This document shows positions 1 through 36,641 of a stretch of 36,641 nt of DNA, piece after piece. Position 1 is the stretch's first letter; each line of letters starts with the position of its first letter. The notes beneath the pieces are model-generated. The model had not been told where the DNA came from. It saw only the letters and a program-made list of their open reading frames with translations, and made no database searches. The translations under genes were made by a program, and so were the position numbers. Source of the DNA: a virus; IMG/VR virus record IMGVR_UViG_3300044225_002348, positions 1-36,641 of that record. The stretch is one strand, 5' to 3'.

Positions 1-22
1 GGGGAAAATGGAGGAGAGGTGA

Positions 23-400
23 ACCACGGCAGAGCTGAACATCATGGATGGCGACACCTCTGCGTCATCCACCACTGTGGCAGACGCTGACCGTGTGGTG
101 TTCAACGATGCTGGCACCATGAAGCAAGTGGCAGTCACAGACCTGGCTGCCTACTTTGATGACGAAATCACAGCAATGCCTAACCTTGTTACAACAGGCG
201 CACTAAATTCTGGCAGCATCACAAGCGGCTTTGGCGCGATAGACAACGGTTCTAGCAATATCACCACAACTGGCGTTGGAACATTTGGCTCACTGGATAT
301 CAGCGGAGATATAGACGTTGATGGTACAACAAATCTTGACGCTGTAGACATTGACGGTGCTGTGGACATTGCTGGCAACCTCACCGTAGACGGCGGCACA
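23..400 (+). repeat. Diverged repeat of fibre shaft, copy 1
   Basis: Aligns without gaps to 34670-35047 (offset 34647). The two copies differ at about twenty-odd positions before about base 370, nearly all at third codon positions, and similarity fades after the residues VDIDGAVD. This marks the left border of the exchangeable fibre tip. The first 22 bases of the window have no match in the other copy. Confidence 0.9.
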
Positions 401-2458
401 ATTAAACTAGACGGCAACTACCCAACAGGCAGCAACAACGTAGCACTTGGTGACGCAGCCCTTGATGATGGTTCGCTATCTGGTGGTAACAACACTGCTG
501 TAGGTGCCTCTGCTTTGACAGATAATACTTCTGCTGGACAGAATACTGCCATCGGTTCTTTTGCTGGAACGAACCTTACCACAGGCGGGTTGAATGTTGC
601 TGTGGGTCAGAACGCATTGTTCACAGCTACGACAGGAACAAACAATGTGGCTGTTGGGCAAGGTTCTCTGGATGCTCTGACAACAGCAAGCAATAACGTG
701 GCTATAGGCAAGGATTCGCTTGGCGCAACCACCACAGCCGCTGGTAGCACAGCGGTGGGGTATCAGGCTGGTGCAGCAAGTACAACGGGGCTAGTTACTG
801 CTGTCGGCTATCAAGCACTAGATGCAAACACAACAGCAATATATAACAGTGCGTTTGGTATTCTTGCACTGACTGCAAACACAACTGGCGAGTACAATAC
901 GGCGATAGGCCGCGAATCGTTAGAGGCGAATACCACTGCATCCAACAACACAGCCGTTGGCTATCAGGCACTCACCGCAAACACTACTGGCGCAGAAAAC
1001 ACGGCAGTCGGAACATACGCTTTAGACGCGAACAGTTCTGGCGGGAACAATGTCGCAGTCGGCAGATACGCTTTATCCGCAAATACAACTGCCTCTAATA
1101 ATACGGCTGTTGGGGACGCGGCATTGATGCAGTCAACGACAGGAGCGAACAACACCGCTTGCGGCAAAACATCTTTGTACGCACTTACAACGGGTTCCAA
1201 CAATACGGCAGTAGGTCATCAAGCCTTAGATGCTGTTACAACGGGTGGTAACAACACGGCTTGTGGTCAAAATGCTCTTACAGCTTGTACAGGCGATAAC
1301 AATACGGCAGTTGGCACAGCGGCACTTCAAGCGAATACTTCAGGCGCAGGAAACACCGCCATCGGAACAAATGCAGGAGATGCAATCAGCACTGGTTCAA
1401 ATAATGCTGCAATGGGATTTCACGCATTATCAACAGTTACAACAGCTAATAACAATGTTGGCATAGGGTCTTATTCAGGAGATGCCATCACAACTGGTGG
1501 TGGGAATACCCTATGCGGGGTTAATGCGGGGACCACGCTTACCACGGGTAACAATAACATTGCTGTCGGGCTAAATGCTCTTATGTCAGCGACCACGGGC
1601 AGTCACAATCATGCGGTAGGTGATAGCGCATTACAGACGCTTACAACTGGTCAGTATAATGTTGCTTTAGGTCACTACACTGGTGGGTTGACGACCACAC
1701 CAACATTTAATGTGTCCATTGGTCACGGCACAATGACAAGCGGAACAACAGGTGGAAACAACACTGCTGTTGGTGGCCAAGCTCTTTATTACAATCAAAC
1801 AGGGTCAGAAAATGTTGCAATTGGTCGTTTTGCTCTTGGTGGTGTAGGCTCAAATAGCCACAGTTCTAATACTGCTGTTGGAAGTCAAGCAGCTGGAGGA
1901 ATTACTACTGGTAACGAAAATGTATTTATAGGTGCTTCTGCTGGGCATAGCTCAATATCCACTACAACAGGTGCTGGCAATATATACATAGGTAGAAGCT
2001 CTCATGGAAGTGCAGCAAGCAATACTAAAGAAATAGTAATAGCCTATAATTCTACAGGCAAAGGCAGTAACACAGGTTTTATCAACCCTAATAGCGGTGG
2101 TGTTTATCAAGGCAATAATTCATCTAGCTGGTCAACCACATCAGATATTCGCATTAAGAAAAACATTGAAGATAACAACATTGGTCTTGAGGCAATCAAT
2201 CAAGTTAGGGTCCGCAACTTTGAGTATAGAACCCCTGATGAGATAGATGAGCTGCCAACAAACACCGCCATAGACAAGCAGGGCGTTCAGCTTGGCGTTA
2301 TTGCCCAAGAGATACAGCAAGTTTTGCCTGATATGGTAAAGCAAGAAACGACAGGTTGTCTCAGAGTAGACGCTGATAATATCACATGGTATTTGGTGAA
2401 TGCCGTGAAAGAACTTTCAGCAAAAGTAGCTGAATTAGAAGCCAAGATAGGAGATTAA
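23..2458 (+). CDS. Tail fibre C-terminal part, YadA-like repeats plus S74 chaperone domain (5' partial)
   Basis: Receptor-binding tip of a tail fibre, open at the left edge. The frame from base 23 matches the fibre at 33626-36202 through its shared shaft (to about base 400); an in-frame stop at 20-22 lies in 22 bases with no counterpart there. From 434 to about 2000 come some 31 units of 17-18 residues of the type NNTAVGxxAL-x3-TTG, the pattern of YadA-head left-handed beta-rolls. The last part (2141-2458) is an intramolecular chaperone of peptidase family S74: SDIRIKKNI gives the Ser (codon 2141) and Lys (codon 2156) five residues apart that form the self-cleavage dyad in endosialidase-type fibres, and it ends in a coiled coil. 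In that family the domain drives trimer folding and is then cut off. ATG 44 is internal, not the true start. Confidence 0.85.
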   Translation, partial: TTAELNIMDGDTSASSTTVADADRVVFNDAGTMKQVAVTDLAAYFDDEITAMPNLVTTGALNSGSITSGFGAIDNGSSNITTTGVGTFGSLDISGDIDVDGTTNLDAVDIDGAVDIAGNLTVDGGTIKLDGNYPTGSNNVALGDAALDDGSLSGGNNTAVGASALTDNTSAGQNTAIGSFAGTNLTTGGLNVAVGQNALFTATTGTNNVAVGQGSLDALTTASNNVAIGKDSLGATTTAAGSTAVGYQAGAASTTGLVTAVGYQALDANTTAIYNSAFGILALTANTTGEYNTAIGRESLEANTTASNNTAVGYQALTANTTGAENTAVGTYALDANSSGGNNVAVGRYALSANTTASNNTAVGDAALMQSTTGANNTACGKTSLYALTTGSNNTAVGHQALDAVTTGGNNTACGQNALTACTGDNNTAVGTAALQANTSGAGNTAIGTNAGDAISTGSNNAAMGFHALSTVTTANNNVGIGSYSGDAITTGGGNTLCGVNAGTTLTTGNNNIAVGLNALMSATTGSHNHAVGDSALQTLTTGQYNVALGHYTGGLTTTPTFNVSIGHGTMTSGTTGGNNTAVGGQALYYNQTGSENVAIGRFALGGVGSNSHSSNTAVGSQAAGGITTGNENVFIGASAGHSSISTTTGAGNIYIGRSSHGSAASNTKEIVIAYNSTGKGSNTGFINPNSGGVYQGNNSSSWSTTSDIRIKKNIEDNNIGLEAINQVRVRNFEYRTPDEIDELPTNTAIDKQGVQLGVIAQEIQQVLPDMVKQETTGCLRVDADNITWYLVNAVKELSAKVAELEAKIGD

Positions 2459-2459: not shown

Positions 2460-2702
2460 ATGGCTAGAACAGACGCAGAAAAAGCACAAGACTACACAGC
2501 AATGGGTCACTCCGTTGAACTCATCAACGCTGTGATTGCAGGGTCACAGATGGCAGATGAAGATGCTTCTGAACGTCAGGCTTGTGTAGACCGTAATGTA
2601 GAACACCTAGAACTTATGAAGGCAAAGACCGACTGGGGTTCTGAGGACATGACGGCTACAACGAAAGCAATCAGTGACGGCAAGGCATATAAGGCAAGCT
2701 AA
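2460..2702 (+). CDS. Small protein downstream of tail-fibre tip (allele 1)
   Basis: An 80-residue soluble, acidic, mostly helical protein starting two bases after the fibre stop and overlapping the next start by one base. It holds the place that an unrelated 92-residue protein (36212-36490) holds beside the other fibre tip, so it travels with the tip. By position it could be a fibre assembly chaperone or a tip-associated protein, but no motif shows this. I do not recognise the family. Confidence 0.75.
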   Translation: MARTDAEKAQDYTAMGHSVELINAVIAGSQMADEDASERQACVDRNVEHLELMKAKTDWGSEDMTATTKAISDGKAYKAS

Positions 2703-2920
2703 TGGACTTAGTCCATATCATAGACGGCCTGATCGGCGTCCTAGTCATGGCTGGCGGCTGGTTCCTCGGATCACAAGCGCGTGAGGTCAAGCGGCTGGAT
2801 ATCTTGATAAACAGGACACGCGAGGACTTTGTGTCGCGTGGCGAGTTGCGTAACGATTTGCAAAGAATAACTGATAGTCTACAACGCCTAGAGGACAGAC
2901 TGGAGCGCCTCAGCTCATAG
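2702..2920 (+). CDS. Small membrane protein with coiled coil (lysis-region)
   Basis: A 72-residue protein with one hydrophobic segment (about residues 6-24, with a GGWFLG end) followed by a charged amphipathic helix to the C-terminus, predicted coiled coil. Single N-terminal membrane anchor plus helical periplasmic or cytoplasmic domain fits an inner spanin-like or holin-accessory protein, and the gene opens the lysis cluster that ends in the M15 endolysin. The function is inferred only from topology and position. Its first 145 bases occur again at 36497-36641, identical from 2744 on but with synonymous differences before that. Confidence 0.7.
   Translation: MDLVHIIDGLIGVLVMAGGWFLGSQAREVKRLDILINRTREDFVSRGELRNDLQRITDSLQRLEDRLERLSS
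2744..2846 (+). repeat. Exact 103-bp overlap with window end, copy 1
   Basis: Identical to 36539-36641 (offset 33795). It indicates that the sequence leaving the right edge continues here, so the genome is circular, circularly permuted or concatemeric. It also marks the right border of the exchanged fibre-tip segment. Confidence 0.93.
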
Positions 2921-5748: not shown

Positions 5749-5750
5749 GC

Positions 5751-8795: not shown

Positions 8796-9161
8796 CTATT
8801 TGTCATAGATGCCCTCCAGTAGCTCGCGTCCAGCTGGGGTGATCTCCCACACAATCTCTTGCCGGCCACGATAATTGGTGGCGCGCCTGCCGCTATCGAC
8901 AGCGAGGCCCATGCGGCATAGCTCGGTGATCCTCGGCTTGACGCTATATTCATACGCCCTCACACTGCGAACAACCTGGGTACTGCTTAGGCCAGACGGG
9001 GCTGCGGCGAGGCTTTGCAGGGCTGATAGCCGTAGTCCCGTTACTTTGACTGCTATAAACTCAGCGGCCTGCCGCTCAGTATCTTTGGCGTTTTTATGCA
9101 CGTTAGGGCCAGGGTCACCGGGCCAGTCTAAAAGATCTGCTTGCATCATTTTCACTTCCAT
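8796..9161 (-). CDS. Winged-helix DNA-binding protein
   Basis: A 121-residue protein whose residues about 42-118 look like a MarR-type winged helix: GLRLSALQSLAAAPSGLSST, then SVKPRITELCRMGLAVDSG (recognition helix and wing) and a C-terminal WEITPAGRELLEGI strand-helix. It could be a transcription regulator or, in a genome with no other candidate, a replication-related DNA binder. ATG 9161 lies inside the end of the small membrane-peptide gene; ATG 9149, after GGAAG, is also possible and would give MMQADLLDWPG as the start. Confidence 0.65.
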   Translation of the reverse strand: MEVKMMQADLLDWPGDPGPNVHKNAKDTERQAAEFIAVKVTGLRLSALQSLAAAPSGLSSTQVVRSVRAYEYSVKPRITELCRMGLAVDSGRRATNYRGRQEIVWEITPAGRELLEGIYDK

Positions 9162-9268
9162 AGTGTTGGATCAGGGAAAACTAAGACGAGCATGGCGCAC
9201 ACCATTCCCATCATTAGTACGAAAAGTATTGTTGCGAAAATCTCGCGTATCCATTCCCACATTGTCAT
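9152..9268 (-). CDS. 38-residue single-span membrane peptide
   Basis: Starts MTMWEWIREIF, then a strongly hydrophobic stretch of about 22 residues (ATILFVLMMGMVCAMLVLVF) and ends PDPTLWK. The start codon overlaps the exonuclease stop (ATGA) and the stop falls inside the start region of the next gene, so translational coupling on both sides supports it as a real gene despite its size. A single-span peptide in a recombination operon is unexpected; a role in superinfection exclusion or membrane signalling is only a guess. Confidence 0.6.
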   Translation of the reverse strand: MTMWEWIREIFATILFVLMMGMVCAMLVLVFPDPTLWK

Positions 9269-22046: not shown

Positions 22047-24844
22047 TGACAAAAGCCAGCCCAGCCCTGAATAACTTTACAGCCGGTGAGCTCTCGCCGC
22101 GCCTGGATGGCCGCACCGACATTGTCAAATATTTCCAGGGCAGCAGGAAACTAGAGAATTTTACGGTGCATCCTCATGGTGGTGCCTCACGGCGGCCAGG
22201 CACTATCTTTGTGCGCGCTGTCAAAACAGCATCCGCAAAAACCAGGCTGATACCTTTTGAGTTCAATGTCGAACAGACTTACGCCTTGGAATTTGGCAAT
22301 GAGTATTTTAGAATCCACAAGGATGGCGGCACAGTTGTGTCCAGTGGTAGCCCGGTGGAGGTCACGACAGTCTATACAACGGCGCAGCTGCCAGATCTAA
22401 AATATGTGCAGTCAGCTGACGTGATGTACATCGTACATCCCAGCCACCCGGTCTATAAGATCACCCGCACCAGCGACACTGCCTGGACATTTACCCAGGT
22501 GGATTTTCGCCGGGGTCCAATGCAGGATGACAACATCACAGACACAACGCTTCTGGCGAATGGCAGAACAGGCAGCGTAACAGTCACAGCCTCGGCTAGT
22601 TTGTTTGTCAGTACTGATGTTGGCCGGATAATCAGGCTGCATGATGGCTTTGCCAAAATCACTGCCTTTACCTCAGCCACTGTGGTCACAGCAACTGTGC
22701 AGGAAAATGTCGAGCGCAGAAGTGAGCTGATGCCGTCAATGACAGCCACCACACTGGCATTTCACGAAGGCGACCCATCAGCCACGGGCCTGGAGCATAA
22801 TGACCGCATCACAGATACCGCTGGTAATTTTGTAAAAGAAGGCTTCAAGAAAGGCATGAAGGTCACGACCACCGGGGCCGGCACTAGCGGAAACAATCAG
22901 GCCGCTATTTTGCTTGTCCAGGTCACCGAGGACACAATGCTTTTTGCGCCATCTGTTGATGTAACCGATGAGAGCGCAGGCCAAAGCATTACCATAGCCG
23001 GTGACCTAGAGGCCGACACAGATTTTGCCTTGGGTGCTTTCTCGGTCACAACAGGCTTTCCGGCAGCTGTCGCGTTTTATGAGGAACGGCTGACCTTTGC
23101 CAATACAACGGCGCAGCCCCAAACAATATTCTTTAGTGTGGCCGGTGACTTTGAGGATTTCGCTGATGGCATCGATGCTGACGATGCGCTGATCTATACC
23201 ATTGGATCTAACCAGGTCAACGTCATCCGCTACCTATCATCAAGTAGGGCGCTTATTGTCGGCACGTCTGGCGGTGAGTTCGCGGTTACTGCATCAGGCG
23301 GCCCGGAGCCGCTCAGCCCGACTAACGCACAAATCAAGCGCCAGGCCTCATATGGCTCTGCCAACATCCAGCCAGTGCAAGTCGGTAACGTCACGCTCTT
23401 TGTGCAGCGCGCCAAGCGTAAAATCCGCGAGCTGGTCTACAATTTCGATACGGATTCATATCAGGCGCCTGATCTAACGATACTGGCAGAACACATAACA
23501 GATAGCGGCATTGTTGAGATAGCGCACCAGCAAGAGCCGGACAATGTGGTCTGGCTGGTTCTAGATGATGGCCGACTGGTCGGCATGACATACCGGCGCG
23601 AAGAGAACGTGATTGCTTTTCATAAGCACCTTTTTGGCGGCAAATCAGATACCGGCAAAACAATCATTGTGCAAAGCATTAGCTTTACGGCTAACAGCAC
23701 CACGGTAAACACAAGCAATAATCGCATCACGCTGTCTAGCCACGGCCTGACAACCGGCGATCCAATTTACTATAACGCCAGCACCAATTCGATCACGGGC
23801 CTTGATAATGAGAGCGTCTATTTTGTTATAAGTGTGGATAGCAATACCATCAGCCTGGCATCCAGCGCAGCAAATGCCTCTGCCGGCACGGCAATCACGC
23901 TGTACTCTGCGCCAGGCAGTGACACCACGCAGCAGTTTTTCCAGGGCGTCAATATCGCTAACTCTAATATCTACTCGGCATCACATGGCCTTAAAACAGG
24001 CGATCTCATCTTTTATGAAACACCTGGCACGGCTATTGGCGGCCTGGCAGAGAACACCAGATATTTTGTACAAAAGATCTCTGACAATGAGTTCCGGGTT
24101 GCAAGCTCGCTAGATTTTACCAATGACATTGTTGCGCTGACATCTGCGCCAGCCACTGAGCAAACCGATAAAATCCTGACCCATGCCAAGGTTGAGAGTA
24201 TTGCCACGGTGCCGGGCGATTTGGATGAGGATGACATCTATGTCATCGTGCAGCGCTACATAAATGGCAGCACTGTGCGCCATGTCGAGTATTTTTCTAA
24301 CTATGATTTTGGCTCGGATGTAAATGATGCCTATTTTGTTGATTGCGGCCTGACCTACTCCGGCGCAGCTGCCACAACAATCAGCGGTCTGACGCACCTA
24401 GAGGGCGAGACAGTCAGCATCCTGGCAGATGGCGCCACGCACCCAGACAAAACTGTAAGCTCTGGCTCCATAACGCTAGAGCGCGCAGCTGAGGTCGCTC
24501 ATATAGGCCTTAACTACACCTCTACGATGGAAACCATGCGCCTAGAGGCCGGCGACACTGAAGGCACCGCCCAGGGCCGTATAAAGCGCGTACACGGCGT
24601 CACCATGCGTCTGTATAGGTCTGTGGGGGCAAAGATAGGAAGCAGCGAGAATGAGCTTGATATCGTGCCTTTCAGATCTAGTGCAAACGTCATGGATACT
24701 GCCACGCCATTATTTACGGGCGATAAAGAAATAGAGTTTAGGGGAGGGTATGAGACCGAGGCCAGCATTGTTGTCCAGCAAGACCAGCCCCTGCCACTTA
24801 CCATCCTGGCGCTATATCCGCGCCTAACGACATTTGAGAGCTAA
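22046..24844 (+). CDS. Tail tubular protein B (T7 gp12-like nozzle)
   Basis: A 932-residue nozzle protein. The start SPALNNFTAGELSPRLDGRT, KYFQGSRKLENFTVHPHGGA and SRRPGTIFV are typical of gp12-like tail tubes, as are FPAAVAFYEERLTFANT and IKRQASYGSANIQPVQVGN. Residues about 545-690 carry two tandem beta modules with the motifs SHGLTTGDPIYY and SHGLKTGDLIFY, an insertion that could project from the tail. The remainder resumes the family pattern (VIVQRYINGSTVRHVEYFSN). Confidence 0.92.
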   Translation: MTKASPALNNFTAGELSPRLDGRTDIVKYFQGSRKLENFTVHPHGGASRRPGTIFVRAVKTASAKTRLIPFEFNVEQTYALEFGNEYFRIHKDGGTVVSSGSPVEVTTVYTTAQLPDLKYVQSADVMYIVHPSHPVYKITRTSDTAWTFTQVDFRRGPMQDDNITDTTLLANGRTGSVTVTASASLFVSTDVGRIIRLHDGFAKITAFTSATVVTATVQENVERRSELMPSMTATTLAFHEGDPSATGLEHNDRITDTAGNFVKEGFKKGMKVTTTGAGTSGNNQAAILLVQVTEDTMLFAPSVDVTDESAGQSITIAGDLEADTDFALGAFSVTTGFPAAVAFYEERLTFANTTAQPQTIFFSVAGDFEDFADGIDADDALIYTIGSNQVNVIRYLSSSRALIVGTSGGEFAVTASGGPEPLSPTNAQIKRQASYGSANIQPVQVGNVTLFVQRAKRKIRELVYNFDTDSYQAPDLTILAEHITDSGIVEIAHQQEPDNVVWLVLDDGRLVGMTYRREENVIAFHKHLFGGKSDTGKTIIVQSISFTANSTTVNTSNNRITLSSHGLTTGDPIYYNASTNSITGLDNESVYFVISVDSNTISLASSAANASAGTAITLYSAPGSDTTQQFFQGVNIANSNIYSASHGLKTGDLIFYETPGTAIGGLAENTRYFVQKISDNEFRVASSLDFTNDIVALTSAPATEQTDKILTHAKVESIATVPGDLDEDDIYVIVQRYINGSTVRHVEYFSNYDFGSDVNDAYFVDCGLTYSGAAATTISGLTHLEGETVSILADGATHPDKTVSSGSITLERAAEVAHIGLNYTSTMETMRLEAGDTEGTAQGRIKRVHGVTMRLYRSVGAKIGSSENELDIVPFRSSANVMDTATPLFTGDKEIEFRGGYETEASIVVQQDQPLPLTILALYPRLTTFES

Positions 24845-25284
24845 TGAACATAGTCCCATATTTAACTGATCACGTTGATCACATTATTAAAGAGCGCACC
24901 AATGACCAAAACCCAGAAGATTATAAGCGCTATTTTGGGTTTGGCAGCGGGCTAGATCAGCCCGGCATGGCTTATACAGCCTTTGATAATGGCCACGTTA
25001 TCTGTTCTGCCGGTATCAAAAAACTATGGCTGGGTGTTGGCGAGGCCTGGATTGTCAGCAGCTGGCGCATCAGAGAAAAGCCTATTGGCGTGATCAAAGC
25101 TATACGCGCCAGGTTCGATGACATTATAGAAACCAATGAGCTGCACCGCGTCCAGGCCGCTGTAAGGGCCGACTGGGATGAAGCAATAAGATTTGCCGAA
25201 TATTTAGATTTTAAAAACGAGGGCCTGATGCGCGGCTACGGCGTGGATGGTCGTGATTATTTTAGATATGCGAGGGTGAGCTAA
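24844..25284 (+). CDS. GNAT-like protein, T7 gp13-type
   Basis: A 146-residue protein with the acetyltransferase-like wording of T7 gp13: AYTAFDNGHVICSAGIKKLW, GEAWIVSSWRI, then NELHRVQAAVRADWDEAIRF-AEYLDFKNEGLMRGYGVDGRDY. In T7 the gp13 protein helps assemble the internal virion proteins. The acetyl-CoA loop is not clearly kept, so catalytic activity is doubtful. Overlaps both neighbours by one base. Confidence 0.75.
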   Translation: MNIVPYLTDHVDHIIKERTNDQNPEDYKRYFGFGSGLDQPGMAYTAFDNGHVICSAGIKKLWLGVGEAWIVSSWRIREKPIGVIKAIRARFDDIIETNELHRVQAAVRADWDEAIRFAEYLDFKNEGLMRGYGVDGRDYFRYARVS

Positions 25285-25769
25285 TGGCATCTGGTCCTTT
25301 GATGATTGCCAGCGCCGCAGTAAAAGCTGTTGGCGCAATGCAACAAGGCAGAGCCCAAGCACGGGCTAACCGCTACAACGCGCAGATAAATGAGCGAAAT
25401 GCGCTTGTGGCCGAGCAAGAGGGTGAACAGCTCATCCTGGAGAACGAGGACGCGATTGTCAGGTTCAAGCGCGACTTTGCAAAGCTCCAAGCGGCAACGC
25501 AGCAGGCACAAAGATATAATGGCTGGATAGCAAGTGGCGGCACCCCGCTAAAAGTGGCCCTGGCTAATGCAGCTGAGGCAGATGAGGAAATCGCGGTTCG
25601 GCGGTACAACGCAAAAGTCGGCAAGCAGCAAAAAGAAGAGAGCGCGCTGCAACAAAGGATGCAAGCTAACCTCAATAATCTTTATGCCTCCGCTGCCAGA
25701 AAATCATCCTTCATCAGCGCAGGCTCCAGCTTGCTAAGCGGCTTTGGCCAGGTAAAGGCGATAGGCTGA
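25284..25769 (+). CDS. Internal virion protein (T7 gp14-like)
   Basis: A 161-residue, Ala/Gln-rich helical protein: a short hydrophobic N-terminus (LMIASAAVKAVGAMQQG), a long charged helix (NAQINERNALVAEQEGEQLI and beyond), the motif NGWIASGGTPLKVALANAAE and a final hydrophobic part. This is the pattern of the ejection protein that first inserts into the outer membrane in T7-like phages. Position between gp13- and gp15-like genes supports it. Confidence 0.82.
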   Translation: MASGPLMIASAAVKAVGAMQQGRAQARANRYNAQINERNALVAEQEGEQLILENEDAIVRFKRDFAKLQAATQQAQRYNGWIASGGTPLKVALANAAEADEEIAVRRYNAKVGKQQKEESALQQRMQANLNNLYASAARKSSFISAGSSLLSGFGQVKAIG

Positions 25770-27535
25770 TGAGAGTTCCTACATACAGCCAGCAGACGCA
25801 ACGTACAGCAGCTGTTGGCGCTCAGCCAATGACTGTCCAGGCAAATCCAAATGCTTTGGCTGCGCCAGGCAGGGCTTTGGCCCAGCTGGGTGACACAGCC
25901 TTTAGGATCAGTGCATCATTCTATGAAGCAGAAAAAAAGGCAGAACGAGCCGGCCAGGTTGCCGGGCGGGTGGCGCAGGCAACCAAGGCAGTCCAAGATT
26001 TTGTTTTAGACCCCGACAATCAAAACAGAGTTTTTGAGACTAACGGCCAGGCGTCTAGTTTTTTCGATACCAGCATGGCGCCAATCCGCATGATGGCTAT
26101 GGAGGGCGTTACAGATCCGCGGGTAAAAAGCCAGATAGCGACCCAGTTTTCTACTATTTACGAGAGCAGCCGCCTGGGTTTTATGAAAATAGCGCGTAAC
26201 AACTTGATTGACCGCAACATAGCAAAATTTTACGCGACAGCAGACGGTTTGAAGGAAAGGGCAGCTATTGGCAGCCCCAGTGAGGTAAACGCTGCAAACA
26301 TAGAGCTGTTTGAAAACTACAACAAACAAGGCGTGGGCCTTTATGATTACATGGCCCAGCTGGGCCTTATCGATGAGCAAACAGCGTTAAAAAACAGAAA
26401 ATCTGCCGGCAGTGATATCGCGCAGACACAAGTCAATTCTGAGCTCAACTCAGCTGCCCTGTCTGGTAACGCCGAGCTGGCTGATCAAGTCATTCTAAAA
26501 CTGCTTGATCCCAAGGAATATGAAGGCCTGGACGCTGAAACACGCACCAGCCTGACAGCAAAAGCAACATCACTATCAGACAAATTATTTAGGCGCGCTG
26601 TCACTGCAGCTGAGAAAGCAGAAACTAAAACCGCGAAAGACCTTAAAAAGAGACAAGAAACAACTGAACGTGACTTTTTTGCGAGGTTCCGGGCCGGCAG
26701 TATGGAGAACGCCACAGATGCTCAGATCCAAGCTATGCCGACAGAGCTTGATATCAGTGAGGCACTGACTTTTGGAGAGATCCGGCAGCCGGCAGCAGAC
26801 GCCTTGATTAAGCTGGTGCGCGGCGGTGATGCGCCTGTCGATGACGCACAGTTCGTAACGAATATTCAGCAACAAATTTTAGCGCAAGATACTGAAGCTG
26901 GGATCAATGAGCTCGTTGACACGGCCACAGCCGCGCTGGGTCCGAATGGAAAGATTACGCAAGGCTCGCTTGAGAAGGTCATATCACTTGCAGAATCAGC
27001 CAAGGCAAAAACCCCTGAGGTCGAAGAAATCAAAAGATATGAGCAAGTCTTAAACAAGCTCTTACAGCAAGATGCGGGCTTCCAAGCTGAATTTGACTTT
27101 GGCGAGCAAGCCAGGCGGGCAGACGCCTTAGCTACATACTTTGAGCTGACTAGTGACCCTGACATGCGCCTGTCGGGCAAAGAGGCATACAATCAAGTAA
27201 GGGACATGTTTGGTCGGTCCTTAAACCAAAAGCTCAACTTTCTTGCTCCAGCCACTTTGGTGCGTGAGGCAGTCGGTAAACCGGCCAGCCAATGGCTGCC
27301 GGAGGACATTTTAAAGGCTCAGTTAGCAGTGGGACGAAGCGATCTCAATCAAGTTCAAAAAGCCTTAGAGTATGAAACCATTGGCGAGATTGAATCGATC
27401 GCAAGAAAAAACGCTCAGGCGCTTAGAGAGGCAGAAGATGCCGCCGCAACTACAGAGGACCAAGATGGTCGCGGATTATTTGATTTTATCAAAGAGTGGC
27501 TAAAAGGCGATGATGACAGACTGAGGACAAGCTAG
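25769..27535 (+). CDS. Internal virion protein (T7 gp15-like)
   Basis: A 588-residue, mostly alpha-helical protein with the start MRVPTYSQQTQRTA, Ala/Lys-rich helices (FYEAEKKAERAGQVAGRVAQ) and a charged coiled coil near residues 275-300. In T7-like phages the gp15-type protein forms the periplasmic tunnel during DNA ejection. The assignment rests on gene order, size and helical content, since this family diverges quickly. Its stop overlaps the GTG start of the next gene. Confidence 0.72.
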   Translation: MRVPTYSQQTQRTAAVGAQPMTVQANPNALAAPGRALAQLGDTAFRISASFYEAEKKAERAGQVAGRVAQATKAVQDFVLDPDNQNRVFETNGQASSFFDTSMAPIRMMAMEGVTDPRVKSQIATQFSTIYESSRLGFMKIARNNLIDRNIAKFYATADGLKERAAIGSPSEVNAANIELFENYNKQGVGLYDYMAQLGLIDEQTALKNRKSAGSDIAQTQVNSELNSAALSGNAELADQVILKLLDPKEYEGLDAETRTSLTAKATSLSDKLFRRAVTAAEKAETKTAKDLKKRQETTERDFFARFRAGSMENATDAQIQAMPTELDISEALTFGEIRQPAADALIKLVRGGDAPVDDAQFVTNIQQQILAQDTEAGINELVDTATAALGPNGKITQGSLEKVISLAESAKAKTPEVEEIKRYEQVLNKLLQQDAGFQAEFDFGEQARRADALATYFELTSDPDMRLSGKEAYNQVRDMFGRSLNQKLNFLAPATLVREAVGKPASQWLPEDILKAQLAVGRSDLNQVQKALEYETIGEIESIARKNAQALREAEDAAATTEDQDGRGLFDFIKEWLKGDDDRLRTS

Positions 27536-30500
27536 TGGATTTCCTAACCTCATTTGCGAACAGCCGGCTAGATGCCAGAATGGCAAATGGCAGATATGCC
27601 AAGGCTATCCAGGACGCATCAGACATTGAGCTGGATGTTGACTACATCCTTAAAAAAGATGTCATGCCGACCAACACAGCCCAAGAGCTAGATGAAAGCG
27701 AGCTGATAGATATGAGCTCACCCACTGGCTCCAACTGGGCTGCCGCCAGTCAGCGCATTTATGAAACCTTCCGGGGCGACAGAGATCTGAAAGGCCGGAA
27801 CATGGCGCGGGGCGCGCGCGAGCCGCAGACGCCAGAAGAATATGCACAATGGGGCATAGAGTTCATTGGTCAGATGAATCACAATTTCTCAAGCATGGCC
27901 GTCAACACAGTCAAGCTGAACGGTCAGGACGACATGACCAAGCTGGCAATGCACCATCTTTTCCAGGATTATGAGCGCCTGCCCGGCATGAGCTGGAACG
28001 GGACCAAGCGGTTTTTCAAAGGTATAGCCACAGATCCAACAACATATGTAGGGCTAGGCACACTTGGCCTGGGAACATTGGGTGTTGCCGGCGCCAAGCA
28101 AATGAGCAAGCAAGGTTTCTCGCGTTTCTTGCGTGGATCTCTTAATCCCAAAATGTTGGCCGCTTATGAGGGCGCTGGCTACACAGGGGCTTTTGACGCA
28201 ATGCGGCAGAATATCAACGTGCAGGCTGGTATCCAGGATGAGCTTGATTTAGGACAAACTGGTTTGGCTACGGCTCTTGGCGGTGTTGGTGGCCGCGCGT
28301 TAGCTGAGGGCGTTGACCAGGTGGTCAAAAACGCACCGGCCATAGCAGGAGCTGTGCGCGAGGGCATTGATCAGCTGGGCCAGGCAGCTGACGCCAGGAC
28401 TTTGCAAAGAGCCCAAGACACAAGCGTCCAGCTCAATACTGGCGTTGACCCAATGCAGGCAATAGATGCTGCTTTGTCTGGGGCTGGCAGAGTAGCCAGA
28501 GGGATGCAAAGACAGGTGGTAGCACCTGGAACAACAATCCCGCCAAAAACCTCCCCACCAACAACTGATGATTTGGCCGCAGCTCAGGCTGATACACGGC
28601 AAACTGCCGAATCTGTTGGTCAAAGGCTTGATATCACTGTGCCTGAGGCTGAACGAGTTGCTGGTGGTACGTATGTTGCTGGGGCGCCAGGCGGTGGCCG
28701 TTGGTCAGACTTGCCCGAAGAAACACTTAATCAGCGCGGTCCAGGGTTTGCTGGATCAGATGCAGATCTTGCCCGTATGTGGCAAGAAACGCTCAGTGAG
28801 GTTAGCCAGGCAGCGCGTGACTCTGTTAGTAGAACGGGTGCAACTTGGGAGGCGTTTCCTGCTAAATCTTGGGATTTGGCTATGCGCCTGCCCAACAGGC
28901 ATCAGTTTTGGTATGAGCTCTCAGGAGAAAGTTTTGTAGATCGTTTGCCAGACTTAAGCATGGATGAGCACATGATGTTTGTCGATTTGGTTGGCGCTAC
29001 ATCAGCGCGAGCCGGTCCTGGCCCTAATTTAGAGCGAGCTGTTTCTGTGCTTTCGCAAAATTTGCGCGGGGTTCCTGTCGATGTTGATCTTACAACGCAA
29101 TCAACTGTAGAAGCCGCGTTGCAACGCCAAGGGGTTGGCGTCAGCTCTGACTTAGCAAATAAAACCGGCATGTTTTCTGACACTCTTGCTTTGACTGGCG
29201 GTTTGCCTGTTCGCTATCCAATAGCGGTAAATGATGTCTGGGTGGCAAAAGCATATGGCATTACAGACGGTCAATTGAGTGGCAACCAAGCCCTGCATGA
29301 GGTGTTCGGCAAATACACAAACAAACTGCGTGACTTTACAAATCAAAAAAGTCCTGGGGGTATTCCACACCAAAGCTGGCAAAAACAAGCACGTCAGTGG
29401 GTGCAAATGCGCTCCGCTGATGATGGTATTGATACATCTAAGGTTACGTCTGTTGAGGGCAATGATTACGCTTCAGAATTTGGCCGTCTTGTTCAAAAGC
29501 TGGAGGGTGCCGGCATCAATGTTCCTGGCGGCGTTTTAACAAGAAATGTATTGATGGACCCGCGTGTTGCTGACGCTTTGCGCCCTACAACGCCCGGCTA
29601 CAGAGAGGCGCCAAAAGCAACAGTTGAGTTTGGCACATTGCTAACGCCATCTGGTGAAAAGGCCGCTAGCATTTTTGCTGCGGCAAGAGATGCCGGCGAC
29701 ACACTAACGCAACAAGAATATCTTGGTACGCTCACTGGCAGCATGTATACCAGCGCCAGAGGCAAGACACTTTGGGAAAAAACTGTTCGCCTAGCGACCA
29801 ATGAGTCAAGAATGGTTACGCGGATTTCCGCGCCAACAAAGGCAGACCCATTTGCTTATAGCGGCACATTTGAGGGAGCTGCTGCACCAAATATCCGTAT
29901 ACCGCTCAAAAATATGTCACCAGACCAGATCGCATATTTCAATGCGATGGCAGGAAAAGGTCTAAAGCAAAAGGCCATGGCTGCTGCAGAAATTAAAAAT
30001 ATAAACTTAAATGAGGCTTTGCCAGAGGGCTACATCGAAACTAACACATTGTATTTTCCTTGGACACAGACGGTGCCAGAAGAGCTTATCATAGGGGTTT
30101 CACGGGCGCTCGGTGAGGGCTTTGAAGTGTCTGCAAGCAAAACGCCTGGTGGACTAGCAATAGACGTAAACCCTAGATTTACTGATGATGGGGCTGAGGG
30201 GCCAGACGCCGATGCCATTGACAGAGCGACAGATTTCCTAGAAAATGAGTTCGGCGCTCAGAATGTGAAAGCATTTAGAGCGGCGTACAAAAGTGACTAC
30301 GGCAAAAACTATGTCGAGGATGACGGCACAGGGGCAGCCTACGATGAAATCATCGAAGCAACGCTAAAAGGATGGGAAGATGAAGCAGCCCAGCAAATCC
30401 AATCAATCGCCGGGACAAGCACAACAGCCGATGCAATCACAGCCTTCCTCAGGGGTGACACAAAAGACCTCGCCATCACAGGCGATGGGCTCACGAGCGC

Positions 30501-30708
30501 CGAAAAGGCTAGCATCAGACGAAGAACATCAACAGTTCGTAAAAATGCGCGGGGCAGAGTTGATTCTCACAACCAGACGTTAGCTGAGTGGGGTCAGCTT
30601 GGTGATGAGCTAGATAACAAAATGACTGCCGCTATTCCTAAGTGGGAAAGGCGCGCAGCAGCTAGAGCGAAAAATCAAGAGGCTGTAGCCAACGCCTCAG
30701 AATTATAG
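27535..30708 (+). CDS. Large internal virion protein
   Basis: A 1057-residue protein starting at GTG 27535, which overlaps the preceding TAG. N-terminal helical part, a Gly-rich hydrophobic segment near residues 175-200 (YVGLGTLGLGTLGVAGAKQ), then from about residue 430 a distinct domain (WEAFPAKSWDLAMRLPNRHQ, FWYELSGESFVDR...MFVDLVGATSARAGPGPN...) found in large proteins of marine podoviruses, function unknown to me. The C-terminal third ends in charged helix. No lysozyme or transglycosylase motif is visible. Probably ejected with the DNA, like gp16. Codon use looks more AT-rich from about 28600. Confidence 0.7.
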   Translation: MDFLTSFANSRLDARMANGRYAKAIQDASDIELDVDYILKKDVMPTNTAQELDESELIDMSSPTGSNWAAASQRIYETFRGDRDLKGRNMARGAREPQTPEEYAQWGIEFIGQMNHNFSSMAVNTVKLNGQDDMTKLAMHHLFQDYERLPGMSWNGTKRFFKGIATDPTTYVGLGTLGLGTLGVAGAKQMSKQGFSRFLRGSLNPKMLAAYEGAGYTGAFDAMRQNINVQAGIQDELDLGQTGLATALGGVGGRALAEGVDQVVKNAPAIAGAVREGIDQLGQAADARTLQRAQDTSVQLNTGVDPMQAIDAALSGAGRVARGMQRQVVAPGTTIPPKTSPPTTDDLAAAQADTRQTAESVGQRLDITVPEAERVAGGTYVAGAPGGGRWSDLPEETLNQRGPGFAGSDADLARMWQETLSEVSQAARDSVSRTGATWEAFPAKSWDLAMRLPNRHQFWYELSGESFVDRLPDLSMDEHMMFVDLVGATSARAGPGPNLERAVSVLSQNLRGVPVDVDLTTQSTVEAALQRQGVGVSSDLANKTGMFSDTLALTGGLPVRYPIAVNDVWVAKAYGITDGQLSGNQALHEVFGKYTNKLRDFTNQKSPGGIPHQSWQKQARQWVQMRSADDGIDTSKVTSVEGNDYASEFGRLVQKLEGAGINVPGGVLTRNVLMDPRVADALRPTTPGYREAPKATVEFGTLLTPSGEKAASIFAAARDAGDTLTQQEYLGTLTGSMYTSARGKTLWEKTVRLATNESRMVTRISAPTKADPFAYSGTFEGAAAPNIRIPLKNMSPDQIAYFNAMAGKGLKQKAMAAAEIKNINLNEALPEGYIETNTLYFPWTQTVPEELIIGVSRALGEGFEVSASKTPGGLAIDVNPRFTDDGAEGPDADAIDRATDFLENEFGAQNVKAFRAAYKSDYGKNYVEDDGTGAAYDEIIEATLKGWEDEAAQQIQSIAGTSTTADAITAFLRGDTKDLAITGDGLTSAEKASIRRRTSTVRKNARGRVDSHNQTLAEWGQLGDELDNKMTAAIPKWERRAAARAKNQEAVANASEL

Positions 30709-30726
30709 TACCTTGTTATAAAGTAG

Positions 30727-30749
30727 GGGCGCCGTGAGGCGCCCTTTTT
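30727..30749 (+). terminator. Strong rho-independent terminator between ejection genes
   Basis: GGGCGCC (30727-30733), loop GTGA, GGCGCCC (30738-30744), then TTTTT (30745-30749). It separates the two large ejection-protein genes; the downstream gene and the fibre then need read-through or their own promoter (TATAAA lies just before the stem, at 30717-30722, as a possible -10 element). Confidence 0.88.
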
Positions 30750-30761
30750 GCTGGGAAAATC

Positions 30762-33629
30762 ATGGCACTTACAGATCCTAAGACACCTGAGGGCATGGCC
30801 TTGCAGGGCGATTTACTGCGCCCGTTAGAGGGCAATGAAATGCAGCCCGTCCAGACTGCTGGGCTATTTGACGCGCTAGGCAAGGCAGTAGGTGGCCCGG
30901 TACTGAACAGGGCTCAACAGCGCCTGCGCGAGTTGCAGACACAGCCACAGCCGGCAGCCCCTGAGATTGCTACAGATGCAGTTTCGGTTGATCCTGTTTA
31001 TGAGGCACAGCTTAAAGCAATGACCGCGCCTTACCAAGGTGACGGCGTGAATATCAAACCCACAGAGGCAGAGGCAGCTGCTGTGGCAAAAGCTATGAAT
31101 AGACCTTCTCAAGTGAGTGATGAGGGGTTGTTAAGCGATTTTCGGGCAGTTGGCGCTCGTGGTGATGAAAAAATACCAGATGAGGGGAGGGTCTTAGCGT
31201 CTATTGAGGCCATAAGCCAGACTTACAGAGCCGATATCTCTGGAGCTGCTCGCGATGAAATGAAAGATAAGGCTGTTAGAGATTTGGCCAATCTCTTGGG
31301 AACTACTCAGAAAAAAGTATTACAAACCAAAATACTGGGCAGAGAACGTGGCGAAACTTTCAATGCTGAAACAATGCTTGCCGCGAGGGATTTGTTAGTT
31401 TCAGAAATGAACACTCTGGATAGGCTGGCAGCCATAGCTGAAACAGGTAGTGATTCAGACGCACTTAAATTCCGCACACAGCTAGAACTTGTGTCCCAGT
31501 TACAAGCGCAAGTAAAAGGCGCTCAGACCGAAATTGCCAGGGCGCTATCGTCTTTTCGCATACCCGCAAGGAACTATTCCGGCGACCAAGACCCAATAAT
31601 GAAGGCAGCTGCAACGACCACTATATTGGACGATTTTGGCGGTGCCGGCACTGTGCGTGATATGGCAAAAGCATATCGTCAATCAGGCTCTCAACACGCT
31701 AGGGCAGCATTTGCCAGGAGCGTAACAAAACTAAAAGTGCGTGAGAGCTTGGATGCCTTTTATGAAATGTGGATTAACGGCCTGCTAAGTAATCCAGTTA
31801 CTCATATTAAAAACGTAACTGGTGCTTTTCTTACTACTGGCGCGCATGTGCCGGAGATGTACGGTGCCGCAATGGTTGGTGGCATGAGGCGCGCTTTGGG
31901 CGGCCGGGGTGGCGTCACAGCAGCTGACGCTCATGCCTCTGTGTTCGGTGCCATTATGGGGCTGCGGGATGCGTATGGCGCTGCAGCCAGGGGTTTTGCA
32001 ACTGGCGAGAAACCATTGCCAGGTACAAAAATTGATTTTCAGCCATCTAATATGATTGGCAACAAAAACAAACGAGTGGAACATGCTTTTAGCGCCGAAG
32101 CCTTTGGCGCTCAGGGTCCGATGGGAACATCGATAGACGCGCTAGGACGCCTATTAACAATAAACCGTATTCCAACACGGGCGCTAGAATTTGAAGATAC
32201 TTATTTCAAGGTAGTGGCACACCGCATGTCTTTGTATGAGTCGGCCATGCGCTCTGGGCGGCAGAAAGGTTTCAAAGGGGATGACCTAGCAGAGCACGTT
32301 GCAAATTACCTATATGACCCTCCAGCGATAGCCATCAAACATGCTGATGCCCACGCAAAATATGTGACCTTGCAAACTGATTTAGACGAGGTTGGCAGAA
32401 ACATTGGCGGCCTGCGGAAAATACCTGGCATGAGGTATTTCCTGCCATTCTTCAAAACGCCTTATAATGCTTTTAAATACGCCATGTTGGATCGCTCTTT
32501 TGTGGGCGCGATCTATGGTGAGAGCGCAAGAGCAATAAAAAGAGCAAATGCGCCCGGCGCGTCTATGGCTGACAAAGCTGCTGGAGATTTGGCGATTGCC
32601 AGGCTTTCGCTAGGCACAATGACTGCGGCATTAATATTCCATTTTTCTCAAACTGGGGAGGTTACTGGAAGAGGTCCAACTGATAGGGGCCTGCGAGCAT
32701 CAATGATGCGTAGTGGGTGGCGCCCTTATTCTGTCAAAATTGGTGACGAGTATTTTAGCTACCAAACAGCAGAGCCATTTTCATCGATTTTAGGAATGGC
32801 GGCAGATGCCGGCGAAGCAATGCAATACGGCGGTATGGATGCTGACAAAAGCGAAGATATTTATGCGGCTGTCGCCGCTGTTGTTGGAAACCAGCTGACC
32901 AACAAGACATTTATGCAGGGCTTTAGTAACTTGGTTAAAACACTAAATGACCCGGTTCGTTATGGAAAATCTACAGCTGATAGCTTCATACGATCTTTGA
33001 CGCCACGCGGGGTTGCAGCTGTTGAACGTATGATGGACCCAGAGGTAAGGGCGGCTGTTGATGCTGTTGACTCATTTAGATCTCAAATCCCTGGTTTAAG
33101 TTCTTCTTTGCCAGCCCGGCGTAACTTTTGGGGGCAAACAATTTACACAAGTGAAGCATTTGGCCCTGATTTGGTAAGCCCGATATACATGGGGCAGTTC
33201 GGGCCAAACCAGCTGGACCCAGATCCCGCTCGCGCTAAACAGGCCTTTGAGCTCGACCAGGAGTTCAAGGCTATTAAATGGGGGCCGACAGATCACCCAA
33301 GCAATTTTGATGACATGATTGAGTTTGGGCCAATGATGAAAGCCCGATATCACGACTATGCCGGCATGAGAGCCCTGCAAACGATTACCCAGACTGTGGG
33401 GATGCCGGAATATCAAAAGTTCCGCAATGCCTTTGTAAACAACGGAGACAAGCTGGCCCGAGATCAGGCCATCTTGATGCTGCGCAGCGCCACGCTATCA
33501 GCTAGGGAAATGGCAAAAGCTGACTTGATGTCCGACAAAGAATTTGGCCCTGAGCTGCTGGAGCTTATTGGAAGAGCAAACGACAAAAGATCTAAGCAGG
33601 CAGATAACATTATGGAAGTATTGAGATGA
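30762..33629 (+). CDS. Large internal virion protein (T7 gp16-like position)
   Basis: A 955-residue protein of the ejection apparatus by position between the gp15-like genes and the fibre. The N-terminal 280 residues are helical and charged; then FYEMWINGLLSNPVTHIKNV opens a long conserved region with several hydrophobic stretches (TGAHVPEMYGAAMVGGMRRA, LSLGTMTAALIFHF) and KIPGMRYFLPFFKTPYNAFK, wording I associate with the largest internal proteins of marine podoviruses. Membrane-active helices fit transport of DNA across the inner membrane. No peptidoglycan-cleaving motif is seen. Ribosome site is modest (GGGAAA); the stop overlaps the fibre start. Confidence 0.72.
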   Translation: MALTDPKTPEGMALQGDLLRPLEGNEMQPVQTAGLFDALGKAVGGPVLNRAQQRLRELQTQPQPAAPEIATDAVSVDPVYEAQLKAMTAPYQGDGVNIKPTEAEAAAVAKAMNRPSQVSDEGLLSDFRAVGARGDEKIPDEGRVLASIEAISQTYRADISGAARDEMKDKAVRDLANLLGTTQKKVLQTKILGRERGETFNAETMLAARDLLVSEMNTLDRLAAIAETGSDSDALKFRTQLELVSQLQAQVKGAQTEIARALSSFRIPARNYSGDQDPIMKAAATTTILDDFGGAGTVRDMAKAYRQSGSQHARAAFARSVTKLKVRESLDAFYEMWINGLLSNPVTHIKNVTGAFLTTGAHVPEMYGAAMVGGMRRALGGRGGVTAADAHASVFGAIMGLRDAYGAAARGFATGEKPLPGTKIDFQPSNMIGNKNKRVEHAFSAEAFGAQGPMGTSIDALGRLLTINRIPTRALEFEDTYFKVVAHRMSLYESAMRSGRQKGFKGDDLAEHVANYLYDPPAIAIKHADAHAKYVTLQTDLDEVGRNIGGLRKIPGMRYFLPFFKTPYNAFKYAMLDRSFVGAIYGESARAIKRANAPGASMADKAAGDLAIARLSLGTMTAALIFHFSQTGEVTGRGPTDRGLRASMMRSGWRPYSVKIGDEYFSYQTAEPFSSILGMAADAGEAMQYGGMDADKSEDIYAAVAAVVGNQLTNKTFMQGFSNLVKTLNDPVRYGKSTADSFIRSLTPRGVAAVERMMDPEVRAAVDAVDSFRSQIPGLSSSLPARRNFWGQTIYTSEAFGPDLVSPIYMGQFGPNQLDPDPARAKQAFELDQEFKAIKWGPTDHPSNFDDMIEFGPMMKARYHDYAGMRALQTITQTVGMPEYQKFRNAFVNNGDKLARDQAILMLRSATLSAREMAKADLMSDKEFGPELLELIGRANDKRSKQADNIMEVLR

Positions 33630-36202
33630 CAGTATCAAGCACCGCAAATAAAGTTAGCTATTCTGGCAACGGGTCTTTGGACACCTTTGCCTATACCTTC
33701 AAGATATTTGCCGACAGTGATCTGAAGGTCTTTATCAGGACTAGCGCCGGCACAGAGACGCTAAAAACGATCAGCACCCACTACACGGTTACTAATGCCG
33801 GGGTGGCTACTGGCGGCAATGTCGTTTTCACCTCAGGCAATATACCGGCCAGCGGCGAGACTGTTGTTATCCAGCGTGAGCTTACGCTGACACAAGGCAC
33901 CGACTACGTTGAGAATGACCCGTTCCCGGCGCAGAGCCATGAGGATGCGCTTGACCGGCTAACCTTTGTCACCCAGCAGATGCAGGAAGAGCTGGACAGA
34001 TCTATCAAAGCATCTGTGACAAACACCATTACAAACTCTGAGTTTACAGTGTCAGCCACAGACCGGGCCAACAAGGTCTTTGCGTTTGATGCATCTGGGA
34101 ATCTATCTGTCACCCAGGAGCTCGGCACGAACAGAGGGGATTGGGCAGCATCGACAAGCTATGCTGTGCGCGACCTGGTCAAAGACACTAGCACTGGCAA
34201 TATCTTTTTTGTAAATGAGGCACACACAAGCTCTGGCTCACAGCCCCTGACAACTAACGCCAACAGCGCTAAATACGACCTGATTGTTGATGCTGCGTCT
34301 GCGACCACAAGCGCGTCAGCTGCGGCGTCAAGCGCTACTGCAGCCGCATCCAGTGCCTCAACGGCATCAACCCAGGCATCCAATGCCTCGACCAGCGCAT
34401 CAACATCTTCAACCCAGGCATCAAATGCGGCATCATCTGCCACGGCAGCGGCGTCATCTGCTACTGCCGCCGCCGCATCAGCCACCTCTGCGGCAGCCTC
34501 GCTGGATGCTTTCGATGATAATTACTTAGGGGCAAAGTCTAGTGATCCAAGCACCGACAACGATGGTGATGCCCTTACCGCTGGTGACTTGTACTTTAAT
34601 ACATCAAGCAATGTCTTAAAGGTGTACAACGGTTCAGCGTGGCAGGAAGCTACTTTGGTTACGACTGCCACCACGGCAGAGCTGAACATCATGGATGGCG
34701 ACACCTCTGCGTCATCCACCACTGTGGCAGACGCTGACCGTGTCGTATTCAACGATGCTGGCACCATGAAGCAAGTGGCAGTCACAGACCTGGCTGCCTA
34801 CTTTGATGATGAAATCACCGCCATGCCTAACCTTGTTACAACAGGCGCACTAAATTCTGGCAGCATCACAAGCGGCTTTGGCGCGATAGACAACGGTTCT
34901 AGCAATATCACCACGACAGGCGTTGGAACATTCGGCTCACTGGATATTAGCGGAGACATTGACGTGGACGGCACCACAAACCTAGATGTCGTAGACATTG
35001 ATGGTGCTGTTGATATGGCGTCCACATTGCAAGTCGACGGCGCAATAACATCATCTGCTGGCGCAACAATCACTACTGCCGATAACACTGCACAGCTTAC
35101 TATAAAATCTACGGACGCAGATGCAAGTGGTGGTCCTTTTATAGATTTAATAAGAGACAGCAGCAGCCCTGCGGCCAATGATATTGTAGGTTTACTTAGA
35201 TTCCGTAATGATAATTCAGCAGGAGACGTACACACTTACGGTTTAATCCAGTCAAAAATCTTAGATGCTACTGATGGCAGTGAAGATATGGGGCTGGAAA
35301 TAACAATGAATAAAGATGGCACGAATCGTAGCAGAATAGAGTGTCTTGCTGCCGAAACTGTGTTTAATGAGGATAGTGTAGACCTAGACTTCCGTGTTGA
35401 GTCCAACGGCAACGCTAACATGCTGGTTGTGGATGCGGGTAATGATAAAGTCGGCATTGGGACTAACGTCCCAGCAAACAAATTATCTGTGGTTGGTGGA
35501 GATTTTGGAACACTCCTTCTAGATAACGCTAACTCATCTCACGGAACACAAATTCTTTTTCAAGCAAATGGCACAGCCAACACAGGTGGTGACATTCAGA
35601 TGTCTGATGCTGGCGGTATGAAGATTAGAACGCTTGCAGTTGAACCAATTACACTTGCTACTTCTGCGTCCGCTGGTTCTCCTGCTAATGTGCTTGTTCT
35701 TGGAACAAATAAAGATGTGACTGTTAGCGACGGCGACCTTGTGATTGGCACAAGTGGTCATGGCATTAGTTTTGCTGCAACCGGTGATGCTAGTGGCGCG
35801 ACCAGTGAACTTCTTGACGACTATGAAGAAGGCACTTGGACTCCAGTGTTAACAACAAGTTCTGGAACTCCTGCTACTTATGGCACACAACAGATAGGAA
35901 AATATGTAAAAATTGGTGATTTGGTACACATTTATTTTGATATTGCAATCAACCAAGTAAACAACAGTAATACAACTCTTGTTTCTGGACATCCTTTCAA
36001 TTCAGTAAATAACGACGCACTGGCAGTTAGTTTCTTTAGCACTTTGGCTGTCAGTCCCGTGTTTGTACAGTTTCAATCTGTTGGGTCAAGTGGTTTCATG
36101 GCCGTCGGCCTGACAAGCGCAGGGACAAACATTACCAACGGGCTTGGAATATTCGGAAATAGCGCAAGAATAATAGCAAGTGGCACTTACAGAACAGCAT
36201 AG
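33626..36202 (+). CDS. Tail fibre, T7 gp17-type N-terminus (allele 2 tip)
   Basis: An 858-residue fibre. Residues about 3-130 are the T7 gp17-like tail-attachment domain (ANKVSYSGNGSLDTFAYTFK, QGTDYVENDPFPAQSHEDAL). About 225-290 is an Ala/Ser/Thr-rich stalk, then YLGAKSSDPSTDNDGDALTA and a shaft (from 349) shared with the window start. After about residue 474 it departs from the other copy: no YadA repeats and no S74 domain. The last part (735-858) starts YEEGTWTPVL, a C-terminal domain seen in many phage fibres. It should bind the host receptor. Confidence 0.9.
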   Translation: MTVSSTANKVSYSGNGSLDTFAYTFKIFADSDLKVFIRTSAGTETLKTISTHYTVTNAGVATGGNVVFTSGNIPASGETVVIQRELTLTQGTDYVENDPFPAQSHEDALDRLTFVTQQMQEELDRSIKASVTNTITNSEFTVSATDRANKVFAFDASGNLSVTQELGTNRGDWAASTSYAVRDLVKDTSTGNIFFVNEAHTSSGSQPLTTNANSAKYDLIVDAASATTSASAAASSATAAASSASTASTQASNASTSASTSSTQASNAASSATAAASSATAAAASATSAAASLDAFDDNYLGAKSSDPSTDNDGDALTAGDLYFNTSSNVLKVYNGSAWQEATLVTTATTAELNIMDGDTSASSTTVADADRVVFNDAGTMKQVAVTDLAAYFDDEITAMPNLVTTGALNSGSITSGFGAIDNGSSNITTTGVGTFGSLDISGDIDVDGTTNLDVVDIDGAVDMASTLQVDGAITSSAGATITTADNTAQLTIKSTDADASGGPFIDLIRDSSSPAANDIVGLLRFRNDNSAGDVHTYGLIQSKILDATDGSEDMGLEITMNKDGTNRSRIECLAAETVFNEDSVDLDFRVESNGNANMLVVDAGNDKVGIGTNVPANKLSVVGGDFGTLLLDNANSSHGTQILFQANGTANTGGDIQMSDAGGMKIRTLAVEPITLATSASAGSPANVLVLGTNKDVTVSDGDLVIGTSGHGISFAATGDASGATSELLDDYEEGTWTPVLTTSSGTPATYGTQQIGKYVKIGDLVHIYFDIAINQVNNSNTTLVSGHPFNSVNNDALAVSFFSTLAVSPVFVQFQSVGSSGFMAVGLTSAGTNITNGLGIFGNSARIIASGTYRTA
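34670..35047 (+). repeat. Diverged repeat of fibre shaft, copy 2
   Basis: Partner of 23-400. Third-position differences dominate, so both copies have been kept as functional protein. Beyond 35047 the two fibre tips are unrelated. Confidence 0.9.
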
Positions 36203-36211
36203 GAGACTGAT

Positions 36212-36490
36212 ATGGCACTAACAGAAGAAACAGTAGAAGACAAGATTGAAGTAGTTGGCGACCATAAAATCGTACAAGTTCGCACCGCAACTGTGATTAA
36301 AAAAGATGGTATGGAAATTAATCGTAGTTTTCATCGGCACCAAGTGTCACCTAGTGTAAAAACAGATAGCGGTTGGTCCGACACAGACATCAGCGGTGAA
36401 ACAGCAGAAGTACAAGCTATCTGCAATGCCGTGTGGACTGATGCTGTAAAGACTGCATATCAGAAAATGGTAGATGCACAAGAACTTTAA
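36212..36490 (+). CDS. Small protein downstream of tail-fibre tip (allele 2)
   Basis: A 92-residue soluble protein (EETVEDKIEVVGDHKIVQVR, RTATVIKKDGMEINRSFHRH, SGWSDTDISGETAEVQAICN) with the look of small proteins that follow fibre genes in marine phages. It has a clear ribosome site (AGGAGA) and takes the place of the unrelated 80-residue protein at 2460-2702. Association with its own fibre tip suggests a tip-specific assembly role; not proven. Confidence 0.72.
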   Translation: MALTEETVEDKIEVVGDHKIVQVRTATVIKKDGMEINRSFHRHQVSPSVKTDSGWSDTDISGETAEVQAICNAVWTDAVKTAYQKMVDAQEL

Positions 36491-36496
36491 TTAAAG

Positions 36497-36641
36497 ATGG
36501 ATTTAGTTCACATAATAGACGGTTTGATTGGCGTTCTGGTCATGGCTGGCGGCTGGTTCCTCGGATCACAAGCGCGTGAGGTCAAGCGGCTGGATATCTT
36601 GATAAACAGGACACGCGAGGACTTTGTGTCGCGTGGCGAGT
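36497..36641 (+). CDS. Small membrane protein, 5' end of second copy (3' partial)
   Basis: The first 48 codons of the gene at 2702-2920, cut by the right edge. The protein is the same so far (MDLVHIIDGLIGVLVMAGGW...). DNA differs only at synonymous sites up to 36538 and is identical afterwards, so the sequence beyond the edge is expected to continue as at 2847. Confidence 0.9.
   Translation, partial: MDLVHIIDGLIGVLVMAGGWFLGSQAREVKRLDILINRTREDFVSRGE
36539..36641 (+). repeat. Exact 103-bp overlap with 2744-2846, copy 2
   Basis: Right-hand partner of the repeat at 2744. It reaches the last base of the window without a mismatch. Confidence 0.93.

Follow-up and report, generated by a model that had tools for sequence, protein, structure and literature searches.

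The window analysed here, the full extent of a virus record 36,641 bases long, is very probably a composite, in which one phage genome bearing a tail-fibre tip that we call tip 2 was joined at assembly to the cassette of a variant tip, tip 1. The real genome would be a circularly mapping molecule of 33,795 bp with tip 2, running from 2847 through 36641 and then back to 2847. At the left end, the assembler would have gone upstream through the common 72-aa gene into the tip-1 cassette of a co-existing related phage, and would have halted in unmatched sequence beyond the tip-1 joint. We infer, in other words, that assembly of the window ran past closure onto a variant, and that tip 1 stems from a related phage present in the same sample. 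The features on which this reading is built are collected in Table 1.

Table 1. Features at the two ends of the window, with the basis on which each was assigned.
Feature	Position	Strand	Basis or remark
Unmatched contig end GGGGAAAATGGAGGAGAGGTGA	1..22	+	20/22 purines, TGA in frame with the fibre; probably an artefact of assembly or reads
Joint module, tip-1 copy	23..400	+	About 93% to tip-2 copy
Tip 1: YadA-head-like repeats, then Peptidase_S74 (endosialidase chaperone)	401..2458	+	PF13884, E 4e-12; repeat motifs
Small protein, 80 aa, of S74-type tips	2460..2702	+	Relatives up to 91%
72-aa gene	2702..2920	+	Tip-1 allele over the first 42 nt, remainder common with the tip-2 form
Tail-fibre conserved N-terminal part (virion anchor, Ala/Ser/Thr-rich shaft)	33626..34669	+	PHROG tail-protein matches, residues 1-161
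Joint module, tip-2 copy, inside the fibre	34670..35047	+	Common with 23-400
Tip 2: C-terminal fibre tip, 'EEGTWTP' end module, without S74	35048..36202	+	ORF 33626-36202
Small protein, 92 aa, of tip-2-type fibres	36212..36490	+	phrog_6228
72-aa gene 5' part, tip-2 allele, cut by contig end	36497..36641	+	Last 103 nt identical to 2744-2846

Self-BLAST of the window returned two long-range direct repeats of the end-to-end kind, both far beyond chance. The left repeat pairs 23-372 with 34670-35019 (350 nt, 93.1%, E 2e-149), and the right one pairs 2702-2846 with 36497-36641 (145 nt, 93.8%, E 3e-58). The original prediction had described bases 23-400 as a diverged copy of 34670-35047; the homology itself stands, at 93% over 23-372, but the limit of 400 is generous, as mismatches, absent from the first 74 nt, reach 12 of 40 positions at 343-382 and 23 of 40 at 383-422, and the homology is gone by about 400. 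Beyond the 74 identical nucleotides, the changes in the left repeat are mostly at third codon positions and rise towards the tip. The right repeat has nine mismatches within its first 42 nt (79% identity), eight of which fall at third positions, and none beyond, so that the last 103 nt of the window match 2744-2846 exactly, as had been predicted, with the true start of the repeat lying further upstream, at 2702/36497. Given the third-position changes and the conserved flanks, these repeats are best seen as ordinary coding homology between two alleles of a coding sequence. The spacing of the repeats also agrees with the closing lengths calculated beforehand, 33,795 bp through tip 2 and 34,647 bp through tip 1, and the domain content expected of the two tips was borne out by Pfam, which placed Peptidase_S74 behind the YadA-head-like repeats of tip 1 and gave no match for the tip-2 fibre. 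The N-terminal part of the fibre matches relatives in HTVC010P-type pelagiphages at 57-73%, and the product of the 72-aa gene, which has a weak match to phrog_12220, would by inspection be a membrane protein.

Evidence for a tip-2 genome comes from other contigs with the same body. IMG/VR was queried with the 1057-aa protein encoded at 27535-30705, which returned three contigs identical over that protein, and with exact queries taken from the left flank (39 bases) and the right flank (32 bases), each of which returned only G001, G002, G003 and G006 (aliases L163, L164, L165 and L273, respectively). All four carry the body of the window at 99.98-100%, all contain tip 2, and in all of them the tip-2 allele of the 72-aa gene runs on across the junction from 36641 to 2847 and onward. 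G001 is 100% identical to the window over 23006-36641 and then continues straight into the sequence after 2846, and over 2702-9210 its sole differences from the window are the nine bases of the tip-2 allele; G003 passes through tip 2 and the junction at 99.98%, G006 crosses it likewise, and G002 ends 23 nt beyond it. No tip-1 DNA was found in any of the four contigs, which may stem from samples other than the source sample of the window. Between them, G001 (to 16232) and G002 (from 14397) span the entire tip-2 circle of 33,795 bp, so that a silent tip-1 cassette has no room in those genomes. No counterpart of the 34,647 bp form, with closure through tip 1, turned up among the data searched, and a tip-1 pattern found tip 1 in no other IMG/VR record, records very near the window possibly lying outside the searches. 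A search for the same body with either tip, proposed as a check on the original prediction, thus yielded four contigs with tip 2 and none with tip 1. This outcome favours the first of the two readings put forward there, that co-existing variants were joined by assembly, and speaks against the second, in which both tips reside in one phage that switches between them, since the circle closes without tip 1 and no machinery for switching was found. It is conceivable, but rather doubtful, that a sub-population in the source sample has exactly the body of the window with tip 1, through a very recent exchange in the joint and the 72-aa gene; if that were true, a tip and its own small protein would move as a unit between otherwise identical integrase-bearing phages.

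Several properties of the contig ends bear on how such a join could have come about. That the contig runs for 103 nt beyond the final mismatch in the right repeat and then ends fits two converging paths of an assembly graph, one of them already used. Two sister contigs with a body about 95% identical to that of the window, G004 (ends L255 and L256) and G005 (ends L257 and L258), have ends that overlap by 179 nt at 92% and by 462 nt at 93%, respectively, at loci unrelated to the fibre, which argues that wrapping onto a variant is not peculiar to the fibre. Both records may likewise represent circular genomes that were continued onto a variant. The terminal identity is 103 nt in the window, 77 nt in G005 and 52 nt in G004; these lengths fit an assembly k of 103 for the window and of 77 for G005 and, with 52 in G004, are only suggestive. 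Short-read assembly of HTVC010P-type genomes is known to fragment by microdiversity, and Warwick-Dugdale et al. (2019, PMC6487183) reported, in a situation akin to ours, that variant islands bounded by tail-fibre genes upset assembly. The effect there, however, was fragmentation, whereas the contig studied here overran closure onto a variant.

The first 22 nt of the window, which close with a stop codon (TGA) in frame with the fibre, do not match 34648-34669, do not occur elsewhere in the window on either strand with up to three mismatches, and have no match in IMG/VR; only 13 of the 36,620 22-mers of the window contain at least 20 purines. The leader is likely an artefact. Because of these unmatched bases and the in-frame stop, the window does not join tip 1 to a fibre N-terminus. 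In relatives, the joint was matched 21 times, in each case within a fibre gene whose frame stays open for 170 codons or more before it, and behind several different N-termini overall. A stop immediately before the tip-1 joint, set against this internal position in relatives, indicates that the left edge is truncated or artefactual.

The unit that differs between the two ends is a cassette made of a tip and its own small protein, as the pairing of the two in relatives shows. The 80-aa protein lies directly behind an S74 domain in 48 of 102 copies and behind an EEGTWTP tip in none, and the 92-aa protein lies directly behind an EEGTWTP tip in 5 of 19 copies and behind S74 in none, the other copies being left unclassified, as they were cut by contig ends or had tips too diverged to detect. 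In L172, a tip-1-type module sits on a different N-terminus, behind a tip-2-type small protein, and begins where the homology to the joint ends in the window (GGTIKLDGNYP), an arrangement indicating that tip-1-type tips move between fibres. Among sisters with a 95% identical body, L170 has another single tip and L171 another tip plus an added gene. Fibre C-termini therefore do differ between genomes of approximately the same body, these being the 95% sisters; with the exact body of the window, tip 2 alone was found in complete form. In nature, the tip cassette would pass between phages through homologous recombination within its two flanks, the joint and the 72-aa gene, so that each genome would hold one tip at the fibre position with several tips across the population; tip 1 and tip 2 would presumably differ in receptor. 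Two further observations were made on these fibres. In L103, L105, L106 and L118, the joint occurs twice per fibre gene, with another N-terminal domain (TYTRQSSFTDGDVI), and from this double occurrence in the sequences the joint appears to behave as a general fibre building block. In L053, L061, L066 and L172, two or more fibre-like genes stand in tandem, the downstream one usually with an MPYIG/MAYIGK-type N-terminus.

Arrangements such as the last invite the question of whether the window could derive from a fixed tandem, with the tip-2 fibre first, a second fibre gene with tip 1 after it, and the contig broken between the two. A second fibre is indeed found downstream in L061, L066 and L053, and in L172 a tip-1-type fibre, together with its small protein, comes after a tip-2-type small protein. 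However, the second fibre of L053, L061 and L172 has its own N-terminal domain (MPYIG/MAYIGK/MAYLGK), whereas tip 1 begins within the joint, a segment that relatives have in the interior of the fibre. In all four same-body contigs, moreover, a single 72-aa gene and the body follow directly behind tip 2, and a tandem would need this gene to be duplicated as well; we consider such an arrangement very unlikely. Similarly improbable is that tip 1 comes by a chance chimera from a distantly related phage and is no allele of the fibre locus. The unmatched bases 1-22 with their in-frame stop would agree with a chimera, as would the tip-1 core, which has no close relative and a best match at about 52% amino-acid identity, but the flanks of tip 1 match the fibre locus in the right order, with the joint at 93% on the left and the 72-aa gene on the right, and the succession of S74 tip end, 80-aa protein and 72-aa gene recurs in L176.

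Alternative fibre tips within one phage lineage are produced by Mu-type inversion of the G segment, by shufflons and by diversity-generating retroelements. Phase variation, by which one phage would store both tips and switch receptor specificity by recombination, could be imagined here from the two tips on one contig with common flanking homology of 350 and 145 nt, and from the tyrosine integrase encoded in the genome. Yet the tip-2 circle is complete without a second tip, the homologies are direct and diverged at synonymous positions rather than kept identical, and nothing suggests that the integrase, some 3 kb distant, acts on the fibre, which makes such storage hardly credible. Inversion of the G segment and shufflons need inverted repeats together with a recombinase, an arrangement that was not found: only short and weak inverted pairs flank the tips in the window, none of them convincing, and no serine invertase or reverse transcriptase was present among the proteins scanned. 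A site-specific inversion switch was rejected, as the flanking repeats are direct and the tip-2 circle is complete without tip 1. A diversity-generating retroelement, which needs a reverse transcriptase and template repeats that were likewise not found in the window, was also rejected, the repeat copies differing mostly at third positions of all kinds.

With regard to the phage itself, the terminase large subunit has its top matches in HTVC010P and related pelagiphages (56-57% over 90% of the protein, with 57% to HTVC010P itself), the 33,795 bp circle falls within the range of about 33-36 kb of HTVC010P-type podovirus genomes, and a T7-like connector, tubular tail protein, internal virion protein, fibre and M15 endolysin are present according to PHROG and Pfam. 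A tyrosine integrase is encoded at 5914-7032 (Pfam, 3e-18), and the sister contig G004 matches across this region. Since PMC6811365 describes HTVC010P-related genomes as having no integrase detected, we call the phage HTVC010P-like rather than a strict member of that group; its integrase hints at a temperate lineage within phages that have been described as lytic. Megablast of the window against phage genomes gave no match, and comparison of the capsid protein with bacterial genomes retrieved prophage-like or misbinned relatives and no clear host. One of the records encountered, PAOW01000004.1 (L259 and L266; 38,079 bases, in a 'Euryarchaeota' bin), carries near both of its ends a capsid gene with 77% identity to that of the phage, and is probably a misbinned, wrapped phage genome. 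Elsewhere in the window, 16132-17082 encodes a proline- and acid-rich protein of 316 aa with internal repeats (an 89-nt repeat at 16448 and 16604). At 28496-30684, which encodes the last two thirds of the 1057-aa protein, the DNA is unalignable with L170 and L171, with both sides 80-95% identical; judged from these alignments, it is a second exchangeable region, in a probable internal virion protein.

Variability of the fibre tip in the HTVC010P-like group is already published. Mizuno et al. (2014, PMC3909814) described in these phages a conserved fibre N-terminus followed by an unrelated, under-recruiting C-terminus, that is, a metaviromic island, and S74 and YadA-like domains are among the C-termini that they reported. 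The window is thus probably an instance of known tip swapping together with an assembly join. It differs from those islands in having both tips on the two ends of one contig, which allows the flanks, namely the joint and the 72-aa gene, to be compared directly. For the record itself, the correction would be from a contig of 36,641 bases to a genome of 33,795 bp with a 2.8-kb cassette of the variant attached; to assign both fibres to a single genome would give a false hint of dual receptor specificity. For the biology of these phages, the comparison delimits the unit of exchange as running from the joint up to where the 72-aa gene begins; should the exchange be real, it would be a well-delimited addition to what is known of variable fibre tips in abundant marine phages.
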